From Silvibacterium bohemicum (GTDB taxonomy: Bacteria; Acidobacteriota; Terriglobia; Terriglobales; Acidobacteriaceae): a stretch of 64,000 bases of DNA. This document shows positions 2,893-42,321 of the stretch, in pieces. Where the stretch lies: assembly GCF_001006305.1 (NCBI RefSeq), contig NZ_LBHJ01000001.1:1-64000 (forward strand). Reading direction: 5' to 3'. The notes beneath the pieces are model-generated. The model made no database searches. It was not told the DNA's origin and saw nothing but the letters and a program-made list of their open reading frames with translations. A program made the position numbers and the translations under genes. The first letter of the stretch is position 1. Each line of letters starts with the position of its first letter.

Positions 2893-5800
2893 CTAACTGG
2901 CCTGCTTGAGAGCCTCCGGCTTGCGTGCTTTCTTGGCTGGAGCGCTCTTTTGCTCCGACTTCAGTCCCGCCTGCCGGATCGGTTTTTCGTGCAGTAGAAG
3001 TTCGGTCGCACGAAATTCCGGATTGGCGTGGAACCATCTCTGTACGGCATCTTCTCCGAGCAGATTCAAGAGTGCGGTGAGCGCCATGCCCTGATGGTGG
3101 GCCATCCACTCGCGAACGACGATCGGCTGCGACGTTGACTGCGAATAGTCGGCCGCTTCGTAGAAGCCGTAGGCGCCTACCCACTTCATTTGTTCCATGC
3201 GGCGAAGGTTGCGCAGCGCTTCGGCCTGCTCAACCCCCAGCGCGAGAAAAGTAGAGTACGGAGAGACGACCGGGCCGGCTGTCGCGTCCCACTTGAGCGC
3301 GATGGAGGGGACGCCGAATGCCTGGTAGTGATAGTGTCCGGCGTCATCGGTCTCGCCATAGCCTGATTCGGAGATGCCCCACGGAACTCCGATGGAGCGC
3401 GCGAACTCCCGCTGGATGGCGACCGCTGCTGACAGCGAGCGCGAAATGAGGGTGTCGGGGTAGTTGCGCATCCACAGCGCCGGCATGAGGTATTCGAACA
3501 TGGTGCCGGTCCAGGACAAGAGGATGGCGCGGCCATAAGCCATGGTGTGCACGCGGCCCATCTTGAACCAGCCCTGCTGCGAGAGCTCGCCGCGTGCGAC
3601 CGCGATAAACGTGGCGATGCGGGCTTCTGAGGCCAGCATGTCATAGGTGGCAGAGTGCAACTTGCCGGTGCTCACCTCATAGCCGATGGATAGCAGCTGC
3701 CGGCCTTTGTCGACGAGGAAGGCGAAGTCCATATTTTCCGCCAGTTGCAACGCTCCGTCGGATACGTTGGACACGCCGTCCGCTAGCGCCACGAGATATC
3801 CTCGCGCGATGGGAAGCTCGGAGCGCAGCTTCTCTACCAGAAGTCCCTGCGCCGATCCCGCTTCGGTGGTGTTCAGCGTCGCCCAGGCGCGCGCCAGCCG
3901 GTGCTCGAGCTGATCGACGAAGTCCACGGCGTTTTCGAGCAACGGTACCGAGTCGCCATCTTTCAGGCTCAGCTCTACGGTTTCGTGCAGCGATGCGTAT
4001 TCCGGCAGCAGCCACGGCAATGCTTCGCGGATCAAGGCGGCGATGCTCTGCACACGCATCCGCGACTCATTCAGCCACCAGGCATGCTCGTCCGGAGACG
4101 GCTCGGAGTAAGGCGGGATATCTTGAAGCTCCGGAAGCTGCTCCGTCTCGAGGACCCAGGCGCACCAGTCATACACGCTAGCCGATGCAGAGGGAAGCGA
4201 ACGATTGGCGATTTTTGAGGTGGAATCTTTCTGTAACCGTAGCAGTTGCCAATGTGTCTCGAGTCCGCGGAACAGGGCCTTTGACAGCACGGGGCGATGC
4301 AGCAGCTCCGCCGCGCCGGTGCGCAGCGTGTAGAGCGACGCGACCAGATTGCCGCTGTCGACAGAAGAGACCGTGATGGGCAGCAGCGGCTCGAAGGTAT
4401 GCGTGTTGTACCAGTTGTAAAGGTGGCCGCGATGCTTCTGCAGGCGCTCCATTGCATTGAGGCTACGCTGGGAGAGATCGATAAATTCAGGCAGGGTGAT
4501 GAAGCCAAGCTCGATCGCTGCCTGACGTGCATTGAGCAGAAGACCGAAGTTGGTCGGAGAGACGCGCGCCGCTTCGAAGAGCGTCTTCTCCTCCACGTTA
4601 TCGGGAATCATGTAATTGTGTCGCGCGCCGCCGAATTCATAGAAGAATCGCCAGATGCGCAGCGCGTGCTGGCGCGCAAATGTTTCTTCCTGCGCCGTCA
4701 GGGGTTGATTCTGCTCGCGCGGCCTGCGGTTTAGCCAGACAGTGATGGCGCTTTCGAGTCCCCACAGGATCAGGATGGGCACGGCGATGACGAGCGATTT
4801 GGGGCGGAAGAATGCGATCGCCGCGCCGAGCGCGAGGGCAAAGACCGGGGTCGCGGCGAGATAGCGATCGACCGGCGTGCGCTTGCCTACGGAGGACTCG
4901 GCCTCGGCAGCGGTTTCCCATTCGAGCAGGCGTTGTCCGGTAATGAAGCGGCGCACCAGCGAACGCACGATGGCGTCGAGCGAAAGCATGGTCTGATGAG
5001 GCAGGAAGACGAGGTTCAGCAACGATACGAGGATGGACTGCAAAAAACCGATCAAGGCTTCGCGTACATCTCCCGCCATTTCGCTGGCCATGGCCCGCCC
5101 CATGCTGAAGGCGAGCTGAACCAGCGTCGGAGCGAAGAGGAGAAAGAGCGTAATCGCGGTCCAGTACAGAGCGCCGCCGGGCAGCCCCAGCCATCCGGCT
5201 ACGAGCAAGATCAGAGTAAGCGAATCGACCAGCGAACGGCGCAGGTTATCGAGGATCTTCCAGCGTGAAATCGTCGAGATGGGATTGCGAACGAAGCGTC
5301 CCGACTCGTCGGGCACGCGCGAGAACAGCCACTGCGCAATCTGCCAGTCGCCGCGTACCCAGCGATGCTGGCGGCGGGTATAGGCGCTGTAGTGGGACGG
5401 ATAATCGTCGATGACTTCAATATCGGTGGCGAGGCCGGCGCGCGCGTACGCGCCTTCGATCAGGTCATGGCTCAGCAGTGAATTGCGCGGGAACCTGCGT
5501 TCGAGGACCGTGTGCAGCGCGGAAACTTCGTAGATGCCCTTGCCGGTGAAGCTGCCCTCGCCGTAGAGATCCTGATAGACGTCGGAGATGGCGCGCGTGT
5601 AGATGTCGAAGCCGGTCTGTCCCGAGTAAATTCCGGCCAGCCGCGAGCGCGCCGCCGATTGCACGCTGACTCCCACGCGCGGCTGCAGAATTCCGTAGCC
5701 GGCGGTCACAATGCGCTTGTGGGGATCGATGATAGCGCGATTCAGGGGATGAGCCATCGCTCCGACCATGGAGTGCGCGGTGCCGCGGGGCAGTTGCGTG

Positions 5801-7431
5801 TCGGAGTCGAGGGTGATGATGTATTGCACGCGCGCGAGCGCGGCCATGTCACCAGCCTTGACCGGGAAGGCGTCAAACTCGCCCTTCAGATACTTATTGA
5901 GATCCAGAAGCTTGCCGCGCTTGCGCTCCCAGCCCATCCACACGCCTTGCTTGGCGTTGAAGATGCGATGGCGGTGCAGCAGGACGAAGGTGCCGTGCTT
6001 GGAGACAGTCGAAGCGTAGCGCCGATTCAGATCCTCGATCAGATTCACCGCAAGGTCGACGAGAGGATCGCTGTCTTTTTCGCGCGGACGCGACACCGAG
6101 TCCGGCAGGTCTGTCAACAGCGCGAAATGCAGATTCGGATCTTGATTAGCGAGGAATCGAACTTCGAGTTCGCCCACTAGTTCGCGGACCTGCTTCTCGT
6201 TCATCAGCAAGGTGGGAATCGCAACCATCGCGCTGTACTCCGGCGGAATACCTTTGCTGAAGTCCAGCTTGGGCAGGGCCTGTGCTTTCAGTAGCGCGGT
6301 CACCGTGTTGTTGACGAAGTCGACGGCGGTCTGCGAGACGGGAAGCAGCAAAAGGAGGAAGGCGATAGTGACTCCGCCAAAGACGGGATAATTCGGAATC
6401 AGCGGCAGCAGGATCGCGGCGATGAGCAGGACGGTCAGGATCTCGATGGAGCCGATGAAGAAGTCATCAGCGTGGCGGCGCAGGGTGATGCGAGTGCGAT
6501 CGATGAAGCGCGGCCGGTAGCCGATGGCTTTGGCCAGCTGCGGGAATCCGCTATCGATAAGGTAATAGCCGACATGCGCCTGGCGCAGGTAAAGGCGCGG
6601 ATCATCGATAGGATTCTGCTGCGCCTGGAGCGCGAGGTCGACGGCGGTCTGCGCGACCTGATTTTCCGTGTACTCAGAATAGAAGGCGATCTCGGCGACC
6701 CGTTTCCGGTATCCCTCGCGGCTGTCGAATTCCATGCGCGGATACGCCTTCGCGGGATCGTTCATGAGGATGGAATCGAAGACTACGAGCGGCTCCATCA
6801 GCGAGAGCCAATCCGCATGCCCAAGCTCGCGCAGGGTCTTGATGCGGGCCGTCAACATCTGTGGCGTGCCCGCGTCCGCCGACTGCGGCGTGTGCAGGCG
6901 GGCATCGGCCTGCACCAGTATGAGATCCAGGACCGCGAACTTGAGGAAGGCGGGCAGCACCCAGAGCTCACGAAGCTCGAGCGGATCGGAGAGCTGTGCC
7001 TCGTTCACATAGATGTGGAGAGCGGAGCCATTCCACACTGACTTGGCTCCGTTGAGATAGGCTGCGGCCAGGACTGCAGCGCGGGGCTCCTCGCCGATAG
7101 GCGAAAGCACGCGCGGCAGCTTGGGAATTTTCTTCTGGATCGAGCGCATCTCCGCCAGTGCGGCGCGAAAGAGGCGTGGATTCTCGCGAATCTCGAGCAA
7201 AGGGTTCGGACCACGCTCATCGGTAGCAGGCAGTTCGCTGAGCTCGGCCATCAAGGCGTTCAGCGAGGATTCGGCCTCCTCAATGCGAGGGATCAGCGTG
7301 AGCGGGGTTTGCGGCCGATGAACGACGGACCAGTGCGACACGGCGGCGCGGGCATGCGCGCGCAGGTCTATTGCCGTGATGCCGGCCTGGTCGAGAATCT
7401 CCTGGTCAATTGCTGGAATCTGGTAGGTCAT
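2893..7431 (-). CDS. cyclic beta-1,2-glucan synthase-like glycosyltransferase with glycoamylase domain, lacking the phosphorylase module
   Basis: A 1512-residue membrane protein of the NdvB/ChvB type. Order: N-terminal soluble region (1-320), membrane segments near 325-372, and a processive glycosyltransferase core with Asp542-Ser-Asp544 ('LDSDTQLPRG'), 'SHDLIEG' near 654-660 and the 'RRQHRW' (Q/RxxRW-type) motif at 686-691. More membrane spans follow, then a glycoamylase-like domain from about 960 to the C terminus ('LYNWYNTHTFEPL', 'VDSGNLVASLYTLR'). Rhizobial NdvB is about 2,800 residues and continues into a GH94-type phosphorylase domain that sets ring size; that module is absent here. 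The gene starts 9 nt after the ABC exporter stops, so the two are probably co-expressed. The product is likely a beta-linked glucan, with linkage and cyclisation unknown. Confidence 0.82.
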   Translation of the reverse strand: MTYQIPAIDQEILDQAGITAIDLRAHARAAVSHWSVVHRPQTPLTLIPRIEEAESSLNALMAELSELPATDERGPNPLLEIRENPRLFRAALAEMRSIQKKIPKLPRVLSPIGEEPRAAVLAAAYLNGAKSVWNGSALHIYVNEAQLSDPLELRELWVLPAFLKFAVLDLILVQADARLHTPQSADAGTPQMLTARIKTLRELGHADWLSLMEPLVVFDSILMNDPAKAYPRMEFDSREGYRKRVAEIAFYSEYTENQVAQTAVDLALQAQQNPIDDPRLYLRQAHVGYYLIDSGFPQLAKAIGYRPRFIDRTRITLRRHADDFFIGSIEILTVLLIAAILLPLIPNYPVFGGVTIAFLLLLLPVSQTAVDFVNNTVTALLKAQALPKLDFSKGIPPEYSAMVAIPTLLMNEKQVRELVGELEVRFLANQDPNLHFALLTDLPDSVSRPREKDSDPLVDLAVNLIEDLNRRYASTVSKHGTFVLLHRHRIFNAKQGVWMGWERKRGKLLDLNKYLKGEFDAFPVKAGDMAALARVQYIITLDSDTQLPRGTAHSMVGAMAHPLNRAIIDPHKRIVTAGYGILQPRVGVSVQSAARSRLAGIYSGQTGFDIYTRAISDVYQDLYGEGSFTGKGIYEVSALHTVLERRFPRNSLLSHDLIEGAYARAGLATDIEVIDDYPSHYSAYTRRQHRWVRGDWQIAQWLFSRVPDESGRFVRNPISTISRWKILDNLRRSLVDSLTLILLVAGWLGLPGGALYWTAITLFLLFAPTLVQLAFSMGRAMASEMAGDVREALIGFLQSILVSLLNLVFLPHQTMLSLDAIVRSLVRRFITGQRLLEWETAAEAESSVGKRTPVDRYLAATPVFALALGAAIAFFRPKSLVIAVPILILWGLESAITVWLNRRPREQNQPLTAQEETFARQHALRIWRFFYEFGGARHNYMIPDNVEEKTLFEAARVSPTNFGLLLNARQAAIELGFITLPEFIDLSQRSLNAMERLQKHRGHLYNWYNTHTFEPLLPITVSSVDSGNLVASLYTLRTGAAELLHRPVLSKALFRGLETHWQLLRLQKDSTSKIANRSLPSASASVYDWCAWVLETEQLPELQDIPPYSEPSPDEHAWWLNESRMRVQSIAALIREALPWLLPEYASLHETVELSLKDGDSVPLLENAVDFVDQLEHRLARAWATLNTTEAGSAQGLLVEKLRSELPIARGYLVALADGVSNVSDGALQLAENMDFAFLVDKGRQLLSIGYEVSTGKLHSATYDMLASEARIATFIAVARGELSQQGWFKMGRVHTMAYGRAILLSWTGTMFEYLMPALWMRNYPDTLISRSLSAAVAIQREFARSIGVPWGISESGYGETDDAGHYHYQAFGVPSIALKWDATAGPVVSPYSTFLALGVEQAEALRNLRRMEQMKWVGAYGFYEAADYSQSTSQPIVVREWMAHHQGMALTALLNLLGEDAVQRWFHANPEFRATELLLHEKPIRQAGLKSEQKSAPAKKARKPEALKQAS

Positions 7432-7440
7432 GCTTCTCCG

Positions 7441-9297
7441 TCAACGATAGCTCGCGGCCTGCATCTCAAACATCCCGGCATAGCGCGCTCCCAGGGCCAT
7501 CAATTGCTGGTGCGTGCCTTCTTCTACCAGCTGGCCACCTTCGAGCACGACGATGCGATCGGCCATGCGAACGGTGGAGAAGCGATGCGAGATCAAGAGC
7601 GCCATCTTTCCTTCGGTGAGCTCTGCGAAGCGCTCGAAGACTTCGAGCTCGCTGCGCGCATCGAGCGCGGCGGTCGGCTCGTCAAGAATGAGCAGCTGTG
7701 CGTCGCGCAGATAGGCGCGCGCCAGCGCGATCTTCTGCCACTCTCCACCGGAGAGGTCGACGCCGGTTTCAAATCTGCGGCCGAGCATCTGATCGTAGCC
7801 GCCGGAGAGCTTGGCGATGACGCCATCAGCCAGGCTCTTGTGCGCAGCGGTCTCGATCTCTTCGTTGGTATGAGGCGCTTCGATATGACCCACGATAATG
7901 TTGTCGCGCGCCGTCATCTCGTAGCGCATGAAGTCCTGAAAGATGACGCCCATCTCGTGATGCAGATCTTCGAGGTTATATTCGCGCAGGTCGACGCCGT
8001 CGAGGAGGATCTGACCTTCGGTGGGGTCGTAGAGGCGCGTGATGAGCTTGACCACTGTGGTCTTGCCCTGACCGTTTTCGCCGATCAGCGCGATGCGCTC
8101 GCCGGGGTGCAGCGTGAAGTTGAAGTTCTTCAGAACTCGACGCTCGGTTCCGGGATAAGCAAAGGAAACGTTGCGGAATTCGAAGCCGCGCTGAATGGGT
8201 CTCGGGACTAGGATGCCATCGGGCTTGGACTGCACGGTCGGTTTCATATCGAAGAAGGCGATCAGGTCGGTAAGGAAAAGCGCCTGGTCGGCGATGCCCG
8301 AGGCCGTCGAAAACGCCTGCTGGAAGTTGGAGCTGGCCTGCTGGATGGCGACCGTTATGAGTGAGAAGACACCGATCGTGGGGTAGCGGCCGATGACGGC
8401 CTCGTAGATGGCAAAGACATACGCTCCGTAGTAGCCGAGGGTGCTGATGAGCGAAAGCAGTCCGCCCCAGATCAGCTTCTTGCGCGAGAGAGCGATATCT
8501 TCTTCGTAGATGGCCTTGGAGAGCGACTTGAACCGACCGGTGAGGTAGTCGCTCAGATTAAAAAGCTTCAGCTCCTTGGCCGCTTCTTTGCTGCCGCCTA
8601 CCTGGCGGAGATAATCCATCTGCCGCTTGGCCGGGGTCTGGCGGAAGTTTTTGGCGTAGCCGAGGAAGGCGAAGTGCGTTTCTCCAAAGAAGGACGGCAG
8701 CACGCCTGCGATCAGCAGCAGGATCATCCAGGGCGAGCGGTAGACGAGCACGCCGCTCCAGATCGCTGTGAGCACCAGCTGCTGGAAGAGCCTGCCCATC
8801 TGCTGAATCATGGCCAGCCGGTCGGTGGCCTGCGCACGGGCACGTTCCAGGCGGTCATAAAAGACCGGGTCTTCGTAGGTGGTGAGGTCGAGCTGCGCCG
8901 CTTGCTGCATCACGCGCACGCTGACGTGATAGGTGTAGCGGTCGGCCAGCAGCTGGTCGCTGTAGTCGATGGTCCGGCTGAGAATGCCGTTCAGCAGAGC
9001 GAGCAGGACCTCTGCGCCGACCAGCCACCAGAAGTGCGGCAGCTGTGGCTGATGGCGAAGCGCGAGCGATACGCCGGTGATGATGCGCGCCGCGACGATG
9101 CCGATGCCCAATTGCAGCAGCGGAACGATGACGCGCAGGATGAGACCCCAGGTGACCACTGCGGGGCCGGACGCCCACAGGATCTCGAGGACCTGGGGCA
9201 CATTCTTCAGGGCCCTGATCCGGTCTCCCCACGCGCTGTGGCTGCTTGTCTTTTGATCGTCGTTCATCGCTTGGGCATTCAAGTTAGGTATTGCCAT
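7441..9297 (-). CDS. ABC exporter, fused membrane and ATPase domains (MsbA/NdvA type)
   Basis: A 618-residue half-transporter. The N-terminal half carries about six hydrophobic segments (from 'VVTWGLILRVIVPLLQLGIG' on). The C-terminal half has Walker A GENGQGKTT, Q-loop 'IFQDFMRYEM', signature LSGGEWQ, Walker B 'LLILDEPTAALDA' and the switch His in 'LISHRFSTV'. It would work as a dimer, exporting a substrate across the inner membrane. The glucan-synthase-like gene starts 9 nt after its stop, which matches the NdvA-NdvB (ChvA-ChvB) partnership of rhizobia, so a glucan is the best substrate guess. Family membership is certain; substrate is inferred. Confidence 0.87.
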   Translation of the reverse strand: MAIPNLNAQAMNDDQKTSSHSAWGDRIRALKNVPQVLEILWASGPAVVTWGLILRVIVPLLQLGIGIVAARIITGVSLALRHQPQLPHFWWLVGAEVLLALLNGILSRTIDYSDQLLADRYTYHVSVRVMQQAAQLDLTTYEDPVFYDRLERARAQATDRLAMIQQMGRLFQQLVLTAIWSGVLVYRSPWMILLLIAGVLPSFFGETHFAFLGYAKNFRQTPAKRQMDYLRQVGGSKEAAKELKLFNLSDYLTGRFKSLSKAIYEEDIALSRKKLIWGGLLSLISTLGYYGAYVFAIYEAVIGRYPTIGVFSLITVAIQQASSNFQQAFSTASGIADQALFLTDLIAFFDMKPTVQSKPDGILVPRPIQRGFEFRNVSFAYPGTERRVLKNFNFTLHPGERIALIGENGQGKTTVVKLITRLYDPTEGQILLDGVDLREYNLEDLHHEMGVIFQDFMRYEMTARDNIIVGHIEAPHTNEEIETAAHKSLADGVIAKLSGGYDQMLGRRFETGVDLSGGEWQKIALARAYLRDAQLLILDEPTAALDARSELEVFERFAELTEGKMALLISHRFSTVRMADRIVVLEGGQLVEEGTHQQLMALGARYAGMFEMQAASYR

Positions 9298-25877: not shown

Positions 25878-26371
25878 GCCTGCGCATTGCCAAAATCCTG
25901 TTGGTCGCGGCGGTGGCGTTTTTCTACACGCTGGTGGTCTTCAATAACTCCACGGACTACGGTTCCAACTATCAGTTTGTGCACCACGTCCTGCTTATGG
26001 ATACAACTTTTCCCGGCAACCACGGCATGTGGCGGGCGATTCACCTTGTCCCGGTGCAGGTTGTTTTTTATGACGGCATCATTGGTTGGGAGGCGTTCAC
26101 CATGATCCTGACCTGGGCCGGCGTTGCGCAACTCGTGCGCGCGCTGCGCAAGCCTGCATCCGCTTTCAATCGCGCCAAGAGGACTGCCATCGTTGCGCTG
26201 ACCATCGGGCTGCTATTGTGGTTCGTGGCCTTCATCAGCGTGGGCGGAGAGTGGTTCCTGATGTGGCAATCGAAAATCTGGAACGGCCAGGAGGCGGCCT
26301 TCCGCATGTTTGCCTGTGTTGGCATCGTCTTTCTGCTGCTCGCTATGCCGGAGGCTGAAGGCCAGCCGTGA
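25874..26371 (+). CDS. DUF2165 integral membrane protein
   Basis: A 165-residue inner-membrane protein with about four transmembrane segments (residues 5-25, 60-90, 105-125, 140-158). The family signature 'VFNNSTDYGSNYQFVHHVL' and 'WQSKIWNGQEAAFR' are typical of DUF2165. It overlaps the cytochrome stop by four bases, which suggests a joint role, perhaps as membrane anchor or quinone contact for the cytochrome. Function is undescribed. Confidence 0.85.
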   Translation: MSLRIAKILLVAAVAFFYTLVVFNNSTDYGSNYQFVHHVLLMDTTFPGNHGMWRAIHLVPVQVVFYDGIIGWEAFTMILTWAGVAQLVRALRKPASAFNRAKRTAIVALTIGLLLWFVAFISVGGEWFLMWQSKIWNGQEAAFRMFACVGIVFLLLAMPEAEGQP

Positions 26372-26459
26372 TCGTTTGAAACCACATCGTTTGAGACCGC
26401 ACAGATCGATATCCTTCGGATTTGTCGCACCCATCACACTCCTGGAGTTCAAAGCACTT

Positions 26460-28025
26460 ATGCGGAACTGCGCTCTCGTCTTCGCTCTCGCTCTATTTGC
26501 CGCACCTCTCATCGCTCAGAGCGGCCTTCCGCCTCGCGAGATCGTCGCCGACGTATCGCACGTAGCCGGTCCGCATTCCAGCACGCCTTTGATGACGGTA
26601 GGCGCAGGACGCGCCAATGAGGGGCTGCGCGCCGATTGGCAGCAGCAGCTGGCTGTTGTGCAGAAGGAGATCGGCTTCCGGTATCTGCGCTTCCATGGCC
26701 TGCTCCATGACGATATGGGAGTCTACGACGAAGATGCGAGCGGCAAGCCGACATATAACTTCCAGTATGTCGACGCGCTTTACGATGCGCTGCTCGCCTT
26801 GCATATTCGCCCCTTCGTCGAGCTGTCCTTCATGCCGGCCAAGCTGGCCAGCGGCACGAAGACGGTCTTCTGGTGGAAGGCGAACGTCACGCCGCCGAAG
26901 GATATGGACAAATGGAACGGCCTTATCCGCGCGCTTTTGCAGCATTGGCGCGAGCGCTACGGCGAGGACGAGATTGCGCAGTGGTACTACGAAGTCTGGA
27001 ATGAGCCTGACCTCGATGGCTTCTGGAGCGGGACGCAGCAACAGTATCTCGATCTCTATCGCAACACCGCCGAAGATGTGAAGTCTGTTTGCCGCCGATG
27101 CCGCGTGGGTGGACCTGCCTCGGCAATGGATGGTCTGCAGCCGATATGGCTGAAATTCATTGCTGACAACCATGTGCCAGCTGACTTTCTTTCCACACAT
27201 ACGTATGGCGTGATCAAGGGAGCTTTTGACGCCGACGGCAAGGCGGGCACAGTGCTCGACGTCAGCCCGGATTCGATCGTGAAGCGCGTGCGCGGATCGC
27301 GCAGCGTGATCGATAGCTCAGCCACACCCAAGCTGGAGCTGCACTACACGGAGTGGAGCACCAGTTACACGCCGAGCGATCCGATCCACGACCAATACAT
27401 CTCCGCCCCATTCATTTTGCAGAAGCTGCGCGAGACTTCGCCGCTGGCGCAATCCATGTCCTATTGGACCTTCACCGACATCTTTGAAGAGAGCGGCCCG
27501 CGCTTCACGCCTTTTCATGGCGGCTTCGGCCTGATCAACTATCAGGGCATTCGCAAGCCATCGTTTTTCGCCTACAAGTGGCTTGCGCAGCTCGGCAGCG
27601 AGGACATTGAGAGCAACGACCGGCAGAGCTGGATCACGAAAAGCGGCGATGGCTCGGTGCAGGCGCTCTTCTGGAATTACACGGCTATCGCGCCGCCTGG
27701 TGACGAAACCAACCAGGTGTTTTACAAGCAGGAGCAGCCGTCCAATCCCGCTCCATCTGCGGATTTGAAGATCGAGGGCTTGAAGAGCGGGCGCTACCGG
27801 GTGAATGTTTATCGCACCGGCTATCGGCAGAACGATGCCTATACGGCATATTTGCACATGGGATCCCCCCGCCAGCTTACCCGCGCGCAAGTCGCCGAGC
27901 TTCAGTCCGCGGCCAGCGGAGCTCCGGTGGAGACGCGCGATGTGGACCTGAAGAACGGCGTCTTTACTGAGCGCTTTGAGATGCATCAGAACGACACGGT
28001 GTTGGTGATCCTCAAGCGCGAGTAG
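26460..28025 (+). CDS. GH39-type glycoside hydrolase (beta-xylosidase-like)
   Basis: A 521-residue exported enzyme with a signal peptide (residues 1-20, ending LIAQ). The TIM-barrel shows the GH39 acid/base in 'YYEVWNEPDLDGFW' and a nucleophile glutamate in 'LHYTEWSTSY'. Family members cut beta-xylosides or alpha-iduronides. The ATG at 26460 is chosen because the signal peptide starts there; the open frame upstream reads into unrelated sequence. A C-terminal beta-rich part (about 400-521) follows the barrel, as usual in this family. It is downstream of the DUF2165 gene by 88 nt and upstream of the SAM riboswitch. Confidence 0.85.
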   Translation: MRNCALVFALALFAAPLIAQSGLPPREIVADVSHVAGPHSSTPLMTVGAGRANEGLRADWQQQLAVVQKEIGFRYLRFHGLLHDDMGVYDEDASGKPTYNFQYVDALYDALLALHIRPFVELSFMPAKLASGTKTVFWWKANVTPPKDMDKWNGLIRALLQHWRERYGEDEIAQWYYEVWNEPDLDGFWSGTQQQYLDLYRNTAEDVKSVCRRCRVGGPASAMDGLQPIWLKFIADNHVPADFLSTHTYGVIKGAFDADGKAGTVLDVSPDSIVKRVRGSRSVIDSSATPKLELHYTEWSTSYTPSDPIHDQYISAPFILQKLRETSPLAQSMSYWTFTDIFEESGPRFTPFHGGFGLINYQGIRKPSFFAYKWLAQLGSEDIESNDRQSWITKSGDGSVQALFWNYTAIAPPGDETNQVFYKQEQPSNPAPSADLKIEGLKSGRYRVNVYRTGYRQNDAYTAYLHMGSPRQLTRAQVAELQSAASGAPVETRDVDLKNGVFTERFEMHQNDTVLVILKRE

Positions 28026-28111: not shown

Positions 28112-28231
28112 GTTTCATGAAGAGTGGCTGAGGGACGGGCCCTGTGACGCCACGACAACCGGCTTAGGCAATCTAAGACATCGGTGTCAACTCTCTCCTA
28201 AATCCGGCAACGGAGGCGGGGAACATGAGAT
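28112..28231 (+). promoter_or_regulatory. SAM riboswitch (SAM-I family)
   Basis: P1 forms between GTTTCAT (28112-28118) and ATGAGAT (28225-28231). Conserved core pieces are GAGGGACGGGCCC, GACAACCGG, GGTGTCAACTC and the closing CGGAGG arm, in the order expected for a SAM-I aptamer. It lies about 180 nt upstream of the threonine-synthase-like gene. When S-adenosylmethionine is abundant, such elements turn the downstream genes off, so the operon should serve methionine or SAM synthesis. Confidence 0.9.
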
Positions 28232-28409
28232 TCGGGGATGCACGCAGTATCGCATCTCGCCAAATCCCAGCAGTACCGGATTCATTCCGGTGTAGTACCG
28301 ATGTTTTAGCAGAGTTCGTCACGCGTGCCCGTGCATTTGTACCCGTAGGAGAATACTCCGATGGGTCCCGCCGTCACTCCTGAAGTTGGTTTCAGGAATC
28401 GAGGGTTCC
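28232..28409 (+). promoter_or_regulatory. riboswitch expression platform and leader
   Basis: Between the aptamer and the coding start is a hairpin ACCGGA-TTCAT-TCCGGT near 28276-28292, followed soon by GATGTTTTAG. This may be the switching terminator or anti-terminator, though the T-run is short. A GGAG-preceded ATG at 28361 opens an out-of-frame 70-codon frame; it probably is not a gene. Confidence 0.5.
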
Positions 28410-29678
28410 ATGGCGCTTGCTTACGAATTACGTTGTCGGGAATGCGGGAAGACGTATCCGAATACTCCGCTGTCGATCTGCGATGCTTGCTTTTCTCCGC
28501 TCGAAGTCCATTGCGATCTCGAAGCGGCTCGCGGCTCTTTCACACGCGAAAAGATTGCCCAGGGTCCGGATAGCATGTGGCGTTACAAGGCCCTGCTGCC
28601 GGTGCCGGAAGATTACGTTCCTGCAACGCCCGCCGGTTGGACGCCCCTGCTCGCCGCGCCCCGGCTGGCATCGCGCATCGGCGCAAAGAATCTCTACATC
28701 AAGAACGATGCCGTCTGCCTGCCGACGCTGAGCTTCAAGGACCGGGTGGTCTCGGTCGCGCTGGCCAACGCGCAGATCTTCGGCTTCGATACGGTAGGCT
28801 GCTCCTCGACCGGCAATCTCGCGAACGCGGTGGCCGCGCAGGCCGCACGCCTGGGCCTCAAGACTTATATCCTTGTGCCCTCCGACCTGGAGCCGGCCAA
28901 GATTCTCAACACCCAGGTCTATGGCGCGAAGCTGGTCCGCATCGACGGCAACTACGATCACGTCAACCGCCTTTGCTCGCAGATCGCCGAGCGCTACAAC
29001 TGGGGCTTCGTGAACGTGAACCTCCGGCCCTACTATGCGGAAGGCTCGAAGACGGTCGGCTATGAGATCGCCGAGCAGCTGGGCTGGCGACTGCCCGACA
29101 ACATCGTCTGCCCTATGGCTGGCGGGTCGTTGATCACGAAGATCAAAAAAGCATTCAAGGAGCTGATCGCGCTGGGTCTGGTCGAAGAGAAGGAAGTGCG
29201 CTTCTTCGGCGCGCAGGCCACTGGCTGCTCGCCCATCTCGACCGCGGTGAAGACCGGCGCCGATCACATCGAGCCGCAGCGGCCTTCCACCATCGCCCGT
29301 TCGCTGGCCATCGGGAACCCTGCCGATGGCATCTATGCGGCGCGCGCCATTCGCGAAAGCGGCGGCTGGGCTGAGGATGTGTCGGACGTGGAGATTGTCT
29401 CGGCGATTCAGGAGCTGGCCGAGACCGAAGGCATCTTTACCGAGACCGCGGGCGGCGTAACGACTGCTGTGACCGCGCGCCTCTACGCGCACGGCCGTAT
29501 CAAGGCCGACGATCTCACCGTCACCTGCATCACCGGCAACGGATTGAAGACAACCGACGCGCTGGCGGGCGCCTATGAAGTAGAGCGCGCCGTTCGCCCG
29601 AGATTGTCCGATTTCGAAGCCTACATCGAAGAACAGACTGAAGACCGCGCCATATTGGAGGGAGCAAGTGTCCGTTAA
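28410..29678 (+). CDS. threonine-synthase-like PLP enzyme with N-terminal zinc ribbon
   Basis: A 422-residue fold-type II PLP enzyme. A four-cysteine ribbon (Cys9, Cys12, Cys24, Cys27) precedes the catalytic domain. The PLP lysine is Lys110 in 'LSFKDR', the phosphate loop is 'CSSTGNLANAVAAQAARLG', and 'CPMAGGSLITKI' and 'TETAGGVTTAV' match threonine synthases of the archaeal type. The start at 28410 has GAGGG 5 nt upstream. Two facts argue against plain threonine synthesis: the SAM riboswitch upstream, and the sulfur-carrier gene overlapping its end by 11 nt. It may replace the phosphate of O-phosphohomoserine with sulfur to make homocysteine. That idea is inference; threonine synthase remains the simplest call. 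Confidence 0.85.
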   Translation: MALAYELRCRECGKTYPNTPLSICDACFSPLEVHCDLEAARGSFTREKIAQGPDSMWRYKALLPVPEDYVPATPAGWTPLLAAPRLASRIGAKNLYIKNDAVCLPTLSFKDRVVSVALANAQIFGFDTVGCSSTGNLANAVAAQAARLGLKTYILVPSDLEPAKILNTQVYGAKLVRIDGNYDHVNRLCSQIAERYNWGFVNVNLRPYYAEGSKTVGYEIAEQLGWRLPDNIVCPMAGGSLITKIKKAFKELIALGLVEEKEVRFFGAQATGCSPISTAVKTGADHIEPQRPSTIARSLAIGNPADGIYAARAIRESGGWAEDVSDVEIVSAIQELAETEGIFTETAGGVTTAVTARLYAHGRIKADDLTVTCITGNGLKTTDALAGAYEVERAVRPRLSDFEAYIEEQTEDRAILEGASVR

Positions 29679-30027
29679 AGTCCTATTGCCGAACGCATTC
29701 CAGAAGCACACCGATGGCACCAAAGAGATTCAGTCGAGCGCGCACAACCTGCCCGAGCTGATCACCGAGATCGAAACCAGCTTTCCCGCGCTGAAGACCC
29801 ATCTGCGCGACGAGCAGGGACAGGTGCGCCGCTTCATCAATTTCTACGTAAACGAAGAAGACATCCGCTTCCTCGGGAACGAGAAGTACGACTTCAAGGA
29901 TGGCGACGAAGTGCTGGTGATCCCCTCCATCGCCGGCGGGTGCTCCCCGCACGGGGACACGCGCTTCGCGCCATCTCAGCTCTGCTGCTGTTCTTATTGT
30001 GGCCAGGAAGAGTGTTCCTGCGCTTGA
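29668..30027 (+). CDS. ThiS/MoaD-type sulfur carrier with cysteine-rich C-terminal tail
   Basis: A 119-residue beta-grasp protein. The ubiquitin-like domain runs from residue 1 to 91 and ends 'VIPSIAGG', the diglycine that in ThiS, MoaD and CysO is thiocarboxylated. Here it is followed by 28 more residues (92-119) that hold seven cysteines, four of them in 'CCCSYC'. A carrier must end in Gly-Gly to work, so the tail would need to be cut off (as the JAMM protease does for HcyS or CysO-cysteine), or it is a read-through: a single C-to-A change in the codon after Gly91 (TGC to TGA) would restore a stop. The GTG start at 29668 has GGAGGGAG upstream and overlaps the PLP-enzyme stop. Confidence 0.83.
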   Translation: MSVKVLLPNAFQKHTDGTKEIQSSAHNLPELITEIETSFPALKTHLRDEQGQVRRFINFYVNEEDIRFLGNEKYDFKDGDEVLVIPSIAGGCSPHGDTRFAPSQLCCCSYCGQEECSCA

Positions 30028-30044: not shown

Positions 30045-30087
30045 GAGGGCGCGCCTGTCCTGGTGGTAATCAGGACGTTTGTAATCT

Positions 30088-40150: not shown

Positions 40151-41107
40151 ATGACTGAATCTACACTTCAAGTAACCGAAAGCGGTTTGCGGGTAGCCGG
40201 CGAGATCACCGAGCTGATGGGCCGCACTCCCATGCTGCAGCTGAACCGAATCGCCCGTCCGCATTGGGCTTCCGTCTACGTCAAGCTGGAGTTTCTCAAC
40301 CCCGGCGGCAGCGTCAAGGACCGCGCGGCGCTGGGCATGATCCTGGAGGCCGAGCGGCAGGGAAAGCTGACCCCGGGCTGCACCATCGTGGAGGCTACGG
40401 CCGGCAACACCGGGGTCGGGCTGGCCCTGGTGGGGGTGAACCGCGGTTACCGCGTGGTCCTGTTTGTCCCCGAGGGCTATGCCGAGGAGAAGTGCATCCT
40501 GATGCGGGCATTCGGGGCAACTGTCATTCGGACGCCTGAAGCCGAGGGCATGAAAGAGGCCATCCGGCGCGCGAAGGAACTGGCCGGGGAAGACCCCACA
40601 ACTTTCGCCGCCTTGCAGTTCGACAACCAGGCCAACCCGCAGTTCCACCACGACACGACTGCCGCCGAAATCTGGGAGCAGATGGAGGGCAAGGTGGATG
40701 CCTGGGTGAGCGGCGTGGGAACCGGTGGAACCTTCACCGGCGTGGCTCAGTTTTTGAAGGAGCGGAACCCATGCGTTCTGAACGTTGCTGTGGAGAGCCA
40801 GGGTTCGGTGCTGCAGGGCGGAACGCCCGGACCGCACAAGGTTGAAGGGATCGGTGTTTCCTTCATCCCAAAAACCTTTCATCACGAAGTCGCCGACGAG
40901 ATCATGATGGTGAGCGACGAGGATGCCTTCGCCATGGTGCGCAAACTGGCTGCCGAAGAAGGATTGCTGGGCGGATCGAGCGCCGGAGCCATCCTGCATG
41001 CCGCGTTGAAGATTGCCGAGCGCCTGGGGCCGGGAAAGCGCGTCGCAACCATTATTCCCGATTCGGCGGAGCGCTATCTCTCGAAGAAGATCTTTGAAGA
41101 AGCCTGA
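40151..41107 (+). CDS. cystathionine beta-synthase/cysteine synthase-like PLP enzyme
   Basis: A 318-residue fold-type II PLP enzyme with the Schiff-base lysine Lys56 in 'PGGSVKDRAA' and the phosphate loop 'GVGTGGTFTG'. The substrate loop reads 'EATAGNTGVGLA' rather than the 'TSGNTG' of most cysteine synthases; I associate the former with cystathionine beta-synthases and O-acetylserine-dependent CBS (MccA). The next gene is a cystathionine lyase/synthase, giving an MccA-MccB-like pair for converting homocysteine to cysteine. It lacks C-terminal CBS regulatory domains. Cysteine synthase A remains possible. Confidence 0.85.
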   Translation: MTESTLQVTESGLRVAGEITELMGRTPMLQLNRIARPHWASVYVKLEFLNPGGSVKDRAALGMILEAERQGKLTPGCTIVEATAGNTGVGLALVGVNRGYRVVLFVPEGYAEEKCILMRAFGATVIRTPEAEGMKEAIRRAKELAGEDPTTFAALQFDNQANPQFHHDTTAAEIWEQMEGKVDAWVSGVGTGGTFTGVAQFLKERNPCVLNVAVESQGSVLQGGTPGPHKVEGIGVSFIPKTFHHEVADEIMMVSDEDAFAMVRKLAAEEGLLGGSSAGAILHAALKIAERLGPGKRVATIIPDSAERYLSKKIFEEA

Positions 41108-41166
41108 TCCTGCTTCTTCCCTAACTGCGACGCCAAAACGGCCATGAACATCTGAAAGTGTCTCCT

Positions 41167-42321
41167 ATGACTGACAAGAAGCACGGCTTTGCAACACGAG
41201 CGATCCACGACGGCCAGGCTCCCGATCCCTTGACGGGTGCGGTGAATGTGCCGATCTATCTCACCTCGACCTATGCGCAGGAAGAGATCGGCAAGCACAA
41301 AGGCTATGAGTATTCACGCGTCTCCAATCCCACGCGCGATGCGCTCGAGGAAAACCTGGCCTCGCTCGAAGGCGGAACGAGCGCGCACGTCTTTGCCAGC
41401 GGCATGGCGGCGATCATGGCGATGATCACCATGTTCCGCAGCGGCGATCACATCATCTGCGGCGAGAATGTGTATGGCGGTACGCCGCGGCTCTTCAACC
41501 AGATCGTCACGCGCTACGGCATCGAGTTCAGCTACGTGGATACTTCAGACCCGGAGAATGTGCGCCGGGCGATCCGTCCCACGACCAAGCTGGTACACAT
41601 CGAGACGCCAACCAATCCCATCATGACGCTGACCGATATCCGCGCCGTGGCCGATGTGTGCCATGAAAAAGGCGTGGAGCTGGCCGTCGACAACACCTTC
41701 ATGTCGCCCTACTTCCAACGGCCAATCGAACTGGGTGCGGATATCGTGATGCACTCGACGACGAAGTTCCTCAACGGACACAGCGACGGCCTCGGCGGCG
41801 TGCTGGTGGGGACCAGGCCCAAGCACAAAGAGGACTTTGCTTTCGTGCAGAAATGCACCGGCGGCATTCTCTCTCCTTTTGAATGCTGGATGATCCTGCG
41901 CGGCGTGAAGACGCTGGCGGTGCGCATGCGCCAGCATGAAGAGAGCGGACGCAAGGTCGCAGAGTTTCTTGCCGGGCATAAGAGGGTGCAGAAGGTCTTC
42001 TATCCGGGCCTGACGACGCATCCGCAGCATGAGCTGGCGAAGAAACAGATGTCAGGATTCGGCGCGCTCATCTCCTTCGAGATGGGCTCACTCGAAAATG
42101 CCAACGCCATGCTGAAGCGGGTGAAGGTCTGCACGCTGGGTGAGTCGCTGGGCGGCGTGGAGACGCTGATCTCGCATCCCGCGACCATGACGCACGCAGC
42201 CATCGGAGCCGAAGCGCGCACCAAGCTTGGCATTACGGATGGGCTGGTGCGTATTTCAGTCGGCATCGAAGATGGGGACGATCTGCTCGCGGATCTGGAG
42301 CAGGCTTTGGAAGTGGTCTAA
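41167..42321 (+). CDS. cystathionine gamma-lyase/synthase family PLP enzyme
   Basis: A 384-residue Cys/Met-metabolism PLP enzyme (fold type I). The cofactor lysine is in 'HSTTKFLNGHSDGLGG'. Typical blocks are 'YEYSRVSNPTRDALE', 'VYGGTPRLFNQI' and 'ETPTNPIMTLTDI'. The family covers cystathionine gamma-synthase, gamma-lyase and O-acylhomoserine sulfhydrylase, which cannot be told apart by eye. Being 59 nt behind a CBS-like gene favours gamma-lyase in reverse transsulfuration. The ATG at 41167 is preferred to a GTG at 41158. Confidence 0.88.
   Translation: MTDKKHGFATRAIHDGQAPDPLTGAVNVPIYLTSTYAQEEIGKHKGYEYSRVSNPTRDALEENLASLEGGTSAHVFASGMAAIMAMITMFRSGDHIICGENVYGGTPRLFNQIVTRYGIEFSYVDTSDPENVRRAIRPTTKLVHIETPTNPIMTLTDIRAVADVCHEKGVELAVDNTFMSPYFQRPIELGADIVMHSTTKFLNGHSDGLGGVLVGTRPKHKEDFAFVQKCTGGILSPFECWMILRGVKTLAVRMRQHEESGRKVAEFLAGHKRVQKVFYPGLTTHPQHELAKKQMSGFGALISFEMGSLENANAMLKRVKVCTLGESLGGVETLISHPATMTHAAIGAEARTKLGITDGLVRISVGIEDGDDLLADLEQALEVV

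Follow-up and report, generated by a model that had tools for sequence, protein, structure and literature searches.

A SAM riboswitch locus of Silvibacterium bohemicum as a probable MetM/MetO-type homocysteine operon in Acidobacteriota

CysO-CysM of Mycobacterium tuberculosis makes cysteine from O-phosphoserine. In HcyS-MetY, a PF01053-type enzyme is said to work with O-acetylhomoserine, and a protease reportedly trims the tail. In the MetM/MetO system of Streptomyces, metO reportedly lies downstream of metM, and thiocarboxylated MetO is said to be the sulfur donor. Here we describe a locus of the acidobacterium Silvibacterium bohemicum (assembly GCF_001006305.1) within the first 64,000 nucleotides (nt) of contig NZ_LBHJ01000001.1, a stretch referred to below as the window. 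The locus reads on the forward strand and consists of an S-adenosylmethionine (SAM) riboswitch, a gene for a threonine-synthase-like pyridoxal 5'-phosphate (PLP) enzyme, to which we give the working name ThrX, and a gene for a small sulfur-carrier protein. We consider it highly likely that these genes form an operon repressed by SAM, which provides homocysteine along the MetM/MetO route.

MetM of Streptomyces was described as a homocysteine synthase converting O-phosphohomoserine (Hasebe et al. 2024, as cited in PMC12172450). The passages of PMC12172450 drawn on here also place a SAM riboswitch upstream of MetM in S. albulus, name metO as the sulfur carrier gene in Streptomyces, mention MetM homologs in cyanobacteria and give 51.6% identity between a Microcystis ThrC homolog and MetM. 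HcyS-MetY belongs to Wolinella succinogenes (Krishnamoorthy and Begley 2011, cited in PMC5764234), and in 2018 at least one homocysteine route was still unknown, the organisms named in that part of PMC5764234 being Aquifex aeolicus, Pyrolobus fumarii and Acidimicrobium ferrooxidans. We found no publication on a MetM/MetO system in Acidobacteriota by title or abstract; the 2024 Streptomyces paper may mention it. The route itself having already been reported from Streptomyces in 2024, what is added here is its extension to Acidobacteriota and the tail of the carrier.

The locus and its enzyme

The initial annotation, made from the sequence alone, had placed a SAM-I aptamer ahead of a threonine-synthase-like gene and an overlapping gene of the ThiS/MoaD type, and model searches recovered all three. 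The SAM-I (S-box) aptamer at 28112-28231 matched RF00162 over the full model (positions 1-108) with 65.2 bits and an E-value of 6.6e-13 in a covariance-model search, the gathering score being 44.4, and it was the single match in the whole 6.46 Mb genome; two non-standard pairs were flagged in the portion of the alignment displayed. ThrX (28410-29678, ATG start, 422 residues) matched PF00291 (PALP; Pfam E 7e-69). The 119-residue carrier of the ThiS/MoaD fold, MetO-like (29668-30027), matched PF02597 (E 6e-10). Its gene begins with GTG, overlaps the ThrX gene by 11 nt and has a GGAGG, seen by eye, ahead of the start.

By family models and fold, ThrX resembles a threonine synthase. It carries an N-terminal C9-C12/C24-C27 motif, exceeded the cut-off of the NCBIfam thrC model TIGR00260 (276.7 bits, cut-off 167.1) and reached 292.8 on NF006050, just under the cut-off of 303. 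The best Protein Data Bank (PDB) matches of its AlphaFold2 model (pLDDT, the predicted local distance difference test score, 87.4) were solved threonine synthases with Z values of 38-48.5, headed by 2c2b, a plant threonine synthase solved with SAM (Z 48.5). A cyanobacterial homolog was reported as threonine synthase and threonine deaminase, making threonine and deaminating it in vitro, in the passages of PMC12172450 used here. All this would fit a second threonine synthase under SAM control, or a dual enzyme with threonine as main product. We hold either to be very improbable, and the reasons start with the genome itself, where a second threonine synthase, sought in connection with the initial annotation, was indeed found: a separate thrC-type gene (G000:C4:831170-832153) is followed by the homoserine kinase gene thrB at 832318-833175 (228 bits, cut-off 168). 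No SAM riboswitch was detected in 19 kb around this thrC-thrB pair, and no carrier gene was found in that region.

In the relatives, too, ThrX-type and ThrC-type proteins form two cleanly distinct families. The former are 60-91% identical to the window's ThrX (alignment A1), the latter, as encoded in the loci fetched, 30-37%. In a tree of 47 hand-picked proteins, the 33 ThrX-type members formed one clade with support of 100/100, apart from the 14 ThrC-type rows. This clade drew together sequences from Acidobacteriota, Cyanobacteria, Nonomuraea, Omnitrophota and metagenome-assembled genomes (MAGs) of Gemmataceae, Kiritimatiellae and Dormiibacterota; the tree program flagged long branches, that of Nonomuraea among them. 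A comparison of 29 ThrX with 10 ThrC rows gave 39 differently conserved columns, 36 of them residue for residue; R206 and Y209 of ThrX, for instance, are N and R in ThrC. ThrX thus differs from the ThrC proteins encoded in threonine operons both in its grouping and in its conserved residues. Given the separate thrC-thrB pair and the clade of its own, ThrX is not the ordinary threonine synthase of the cell. The carrier partner and the missing acyl-homoserine route, both discussed below, likewise speak against a threonine-forming role, and repression by SAM would hardly be sensible for threonine. We predict instead that ThrX is an O-phosphohomoserine:carrier-thiocarboxylate homocysteine synthase. 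As the family models label it threonine synthase, such an enzyme would leave a methionine gap in annotation.

Two further genes of the NF006050 threonine-synthase family lie at G000:C12:442150-443106 and G000:C1:97665-98621 (521 and 537 bits, cut-off 303), which brings the genome to four genes of the threonine-synthase family.

Carrier, sulfur source and the Cys-rich tail

The loci of relatives compared here are the best 80 of at least 590 confirmed ThrX matches in our species collection; named relatives include Terriglobus and Edaphobacter, with riboswitch, ThrX and carrier in this order in Terriglobus roseus DSM 18391 (L101) and Edaphobacter lichenicola (L099). A carrier gene accompanied ThrX at 74 of the 80 (72 when strand and distance were judged more strictly). 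The co-occurrence of the gene pair, a point raised by the initial annotation, can therefore not be due to chance. At seven loci (L118, L138, L139, L140, L141, L142 and L165) a homoserine kinase gene lies 3' of ThrX or of ThrX-carrier, and the three kinases tested scored 229-260 bits on TIGR00191 (cut-off 168), which argues for O-phosphohomoserine as the substrate. Two Omnitrophota loci, L143 and L154, have an E1 gene of the MoeB type directly after ThrX-carrier; at L144, a locus from Gemmataceae, the carrier gene stands 1 kb 3' of ThrX, and an E1 gene comes next. Together with the carriers at 74 loci, these three E1 genes argue for the carrier as the sulfur source. Substrate and donor had both been proposed in the initial annotation and, as predictions, are strengthened by these neighbourhoods.

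ThrX might also make homocysteine from O-phosphohomoserine with free sulfide, the carrier serving another reaction or only helping. This would accommodate the six loci without a carrier (L118, L125, L138, L142, L146 and L165) and the riboswitch operons of two further genomes (G056, L197, and G107, L198), which run ThrX-MetY-MetX with ThrB further on and no carrier, so that two homocysteine routes stand there under one switch, one perhaps replacing the other. Na2S offered to the cyanobacterial homolog gave only an unidentified peak in the passages of PMC12172450 considered here, which may be read in the same sense. The carriers at the large majority of loci, 74 of 80, and the three E1 genes placed after them are, however, difficult to reconcile with free sulfide, as is a MetO-like carrier gene in genome G075 (L208) that stands, together with an aspartate kinase gene, behind a SAM riboswitch of its own. 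We consider the free-sulfide reaction unlikely.

The carrier has a ubiquitin-like core (residues 1-91) that ends in SIAGG, and its nearest PDB chains are 4n6e, a ThiS/MoaD family protein, and 3dwg, which is CysO. This likeness to CysO could hint that ThrX is, after the pattern of CysM/CysO, a cysteine synthase with O-phosphoserine as substrate. A weak match of ThrX to the cysteate synthase model TIGR03844 (51 bits, cut-off 324.9) and a CysM-like gene upstream in the two Omnitrophota loci point the same way. None of the 25 best of 39 NCBIfam matches for ThrX was a cysteine synthase (CysK/CysM) model, however, so that any such match would stay under 32 bits, whereas threonine synthase reached 293. 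The genome has, moreover, its own CysK gene (window 40151-41107, TIGR01139 over the cut-off) and a separate CysM-JAMM-carrier-MoeZ cluster, while ThrX, where it has pathway neighbours, mostly stands with homoserine kinase and aspartate kinase genes, and regulation by SAM does not suit a cysteine synthase either. The probability of this alternative is in our view close to nil.

The cluster just mentioned lies on another contig (L184, G000:C9:283500-294000, at 4181-7399), where genes for CysM, a JAMM metalloprotease, a second ThiS-type carrier ending in GGLA and a MoeZ-type E1-rhodanese stand consecutively; it looks like an acidobacterial version of the CysO-type systems for cysteine. Its JAMM and MoeZ-type proteins could also trim and charge the carrier of ThrX.

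Beyond its diglycine, the window's carrier continues into a Cys-rich C-terminal extension of 28 residues (29941-30024), which contains the conserved motif CCSYCxxExCxC (29986-30021). The motif was present in six of the seven carriers retrieved for the window's genus, that of L012 being the exception, and in 3/74 carriers of the best 80 loci. Over nine such motifs, all five Cys codons occurred both as TGC and as TGT, pairwise codon differences amounted to 145 synonymous versus 79 non-synonymous, and the linker varied in length, which suggests that selection acts on the protein sequence of the tail. Among the 72 carriers measured, no residue followed the GG in 25 (15 carriers ending in VAGG being counted as such), one to three residues in 34, five to seven in 5 and at least 14 in 8. 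The tail would have to be removed before the GG could be adenylated, which suggests a proteolytic maturation of the carrier. Somewhat speculatively, the carrier of the window's genus may be a pro-protein whose tail binds zinc or senses the redox or sulfur state, cleavage, presumably by a JAMM zinc protease, gating the carrier supply. Tail cleavage would then be a second layer of control on methionine synthesis beside the SAM riboswitch. The Cys-rich tail looks new, the literature on such tails not having been searched.

Other homocysteine routes and control by SAM

The genome of S. bohemicum lacks the usual homocysteine routes, a point that the initial annotation had proposed to check. No convincing MetX was found in it. 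A MetX-like gene at G000:C1:339664 (L195) reached 157.7 bits on TIGR01392, but NF005757 'hypothetical protein' fitted it far better (357.4 bits, cut-off 332) and it was rejected, its product belonging to another hydrolase family than MetX; two weaker MetX matches had 105 and 89 bits. Three genomes of the same genus (G001, G002 and G008) gave no MetX match. HTS/MetA had no match in the own genome, and HcyBio (PF01837) matched none of 16 genomes, the own one included, while three control genomes did match. The usual acyl-homoserine route is missing from this genome. MetH is encoded, by two open frames. The gene following CysK in the window (41158-42321) is the sole strong PF01053 member in the genome; it fits models of cystathionine gamma-lyase/gamma-synthase, though none of the 25 shown reached its cut-off. 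We rejected this pair (40151-41107 and 41158-42321) as an alternative homocysteine route: the second gene could not complete forward transsulfuration alone, and no riboswitch was found there.

The same picture emerged from 151 genomes of the class, in which ThrX was scored at an E-value below 1e-150 and a strong MetX at 1e-100 or less; both limits are our own and were placed in wide gaps of the E-values, and fragments at contig edges (ThrX in G091, MetX in G135) were excluded from the counts. ThrX was present in 93 genomes and a strong MetX in 44, both occurring in 5 and neither in 19. A strong MetX thus accompanied ThrX in 5/93 genomes versus 39/58 without ThrX (Fisher p 2e-16, phylogeny not corrected). 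In G016, a genome from the same family that lacks a ThrX gene, a MetX gene adjoins one of the MetY type. These data suggest that MetM/MetO is the main homocysteine route in much of this class. In G018, a 99% complete relative, ThrX gave no strong match, MetX, HTS and HcyBio gave none, and a clear ThrB was likewise missing, though two strong PF01053 genes were found; it is possibly auxotrophic for methionine and threonine.

Regulation points to methionine as well. A SAM riboswitch was located 94-266 nt 5' of ThrX in at least 62 of the 93 ThrX genomes, a lower bound because stricter filters were used, and also 5' of the ThrX homologs of Nonomuraea and of the Gemmataceae and Kiritimatiellae MAGs. 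Another 21 riboswitches of the class were not upstream of ThrX, and 11 of these loci were fetched. Besides the carrier and aspartate kinase of L208, aspartate kinase genes stood behind a SAM riboswitch in L206, L207 and L199. Cysteine desulfurase genes did so in two ThrX genomes (L204 of G113 and L205 of G051), with a CysK-like gene and a serine acetyltransferase gene next in L204; this placement suggests that the carrier receives its sulfur from a cysteine desulfurase. Where both ThrX and a strong MetX were lacking (L199, L200 and L201), cystathionine-gamma-synthase-like genes followed the riboswitch, in L199 behind aspartate kinase and together with an aspartate-semialdehyde dehydrogenase gene; possibly this is yet another way to homocysteine, which may start from O-phosphohomoserine as it does in plants. 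The gene after the riboswitch in L202 and L203 gave no NCBIfam match at the thresholds used.

A number of observations weigh against a MetM/MetO assignment. To the threonine synthase model TIGR00260, the in vitro activities of the cyanobacterial homolog and the loci and operons without a carrier, as described above, must be added that the riboswitch was not seen just upstream of ThrX in 31 of the 93 genomes, under the stricter filters and with some contigs short, nor in the six cyanobacterial, three Omnitrophota and one Dormiibacterota loci scanned. Five ThrX genomes have a strong MetX, and HTS occurs alongside ThrX and carrier in G021 and G022. The TIGR01392 cut-off was reached by no genome, including 0/14 control genomes; since the controls miss it as well, 'strong MetX' rests on the self-chosen gap in E-values. 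Finally, methionine did not increase in threonine-treated cells, as stated in the passages of PMC12172450 on the cyanobacterial homolog.

How the switch acts in the window can be approached from the 178-nt leader, or expression platform (28232-28409), between aptamer and ThrX. A terminator right after the aptamer is the usual SAM-off design, and U-run terminators, judged by eye, directly follow the aptamer in the relatives L043, L045 and L047. In the window, such a classical terminator was rejected, only a weak 5-bp terminator-like hairpin being present at 28288-28300. When folded as free RNA, segments of the aptamer paired with segments of the leader, in a 16-bp helix of TCTAAGACATCGGTGTC with GTACCGATGTTTTAGCA and an 11-bp helix of GGGCCCTGTGAC with GTCACGCGTGCCC. 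None of the four leaders folded from the same genus showed the longer helix; that of 11 bp appeared again in L006 and, in a shorter version, in L037 and L038. The ON/OFF logic and the sign of the switch, with SAM lowering expression, would follow the usual design. A terminator-like hairpin 3' of the carrier gene (30056-30077; 9-bp stem, then TTTGTAATCT) is a consensus match only. Just 5' of the riboswitch and on the same strand lies a glycosyl hydrolase family 39 gene (26310-28025, PF01229, E 1e-107), which seems unrelated to the operon.

Proposed pathway and comparison with known systems

In the pathway we propose, O-phosphohomoserine would come from ThrB, the homoserine kinase whose gene accompanies thrC at another place in the genome. 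The C-terminal tail would be cut from the carrier, most likely by a JAMM protease encoded elsewhere, exposing the diglycine, and an E1-rhodanese of the MoeZ type would adenylate and thiocarboxylate the carrier. ThrX would then eliminate phosphate from O-phosphohomoserine; where a threonine synthase adds water to the beta carbon, it would attach the sulfur of the carrier to the gamma carbon. Homocysteine would be released and methylated to methionine by MetH. With SAM abundant, the riboswitch would lower expression of the ThrX and carrier genes. Such a pathway is outlined by the genes that an operon or a riboswitch links to this system in some relatives, namely those for homoserine kinase, aspartate kinase, E1 and cysteine desulfurase. 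The hypothesis of the initial annotation is very probably right, with the chemistry of ThrX inferred from its genomic setting. Of the two findings named there as speaking against it, a sole threonine synthase beside a complete standard methionine pathway and an aptamer without a covariance-model match, neither was made.

The DUF39/HcyBio pathway is likewise an alternative homocysteine route, but HcyBio (PF01837) is unmatched in the own genome. HcyS-MetY of W. succinogenes shares the protein thiocarboxylate as sulfur donor for homocysteine, whereas ThrX is a PF00291 protein, a fold-type-II relative of threonine synthase, and not PF01053 like MetY. CysO-CysM-Mec-MoeZ of M. tuberculosis, which the CysM-JAMM-carrier-MoeZ cluster of the own genome resembles, combines a fold-type-II PLP enzyme with a carrier thiocarboxylate, but ThrX is not of the CysK/CysM families. 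With ThrC, ThrX has fold, cofactor and presumed substrate O-phosphohomoserine in common, and differs from it in its separate clade, an identity of 30-37% and other conserved residues.

MetM/MetO, as described in the passages of the citing paper, shares with our locus a threonine-synthase-like enzyme distinct from ThrC, O-phosphohomoserine as substrate (predicted for ThrX), an upstream SAM riboswitch and a carrier gene. The identical order of riboswitch, enzyme and carrier is found in the actinomycetote Nonomuraea gerenzanensis (L196: aptamer 5825-5966, enzyme 6001-7212, carrier 7216-7512, ending in GG), whose enzyme groups with ThrX. Differences concern the phylum, the identity to the Nonomuraea homologs (53% for ThrX, 33% for the carrier) and the Cys-rich tail of the window's carrier, the Nonomuraea and cyanobacterial carriers seen ending at GG. 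Distinct enzyme clade, adjoining GG carrier, upstream SAM riboswitch and lack of the usual acyl-homoserine route are all present here. Since both the description of MetM/MetO and the Nonomuraea locus match, ThrX and its carrier are best filed as MetM/MetO, S. albulus MetM being compared through its description in the citing paper.

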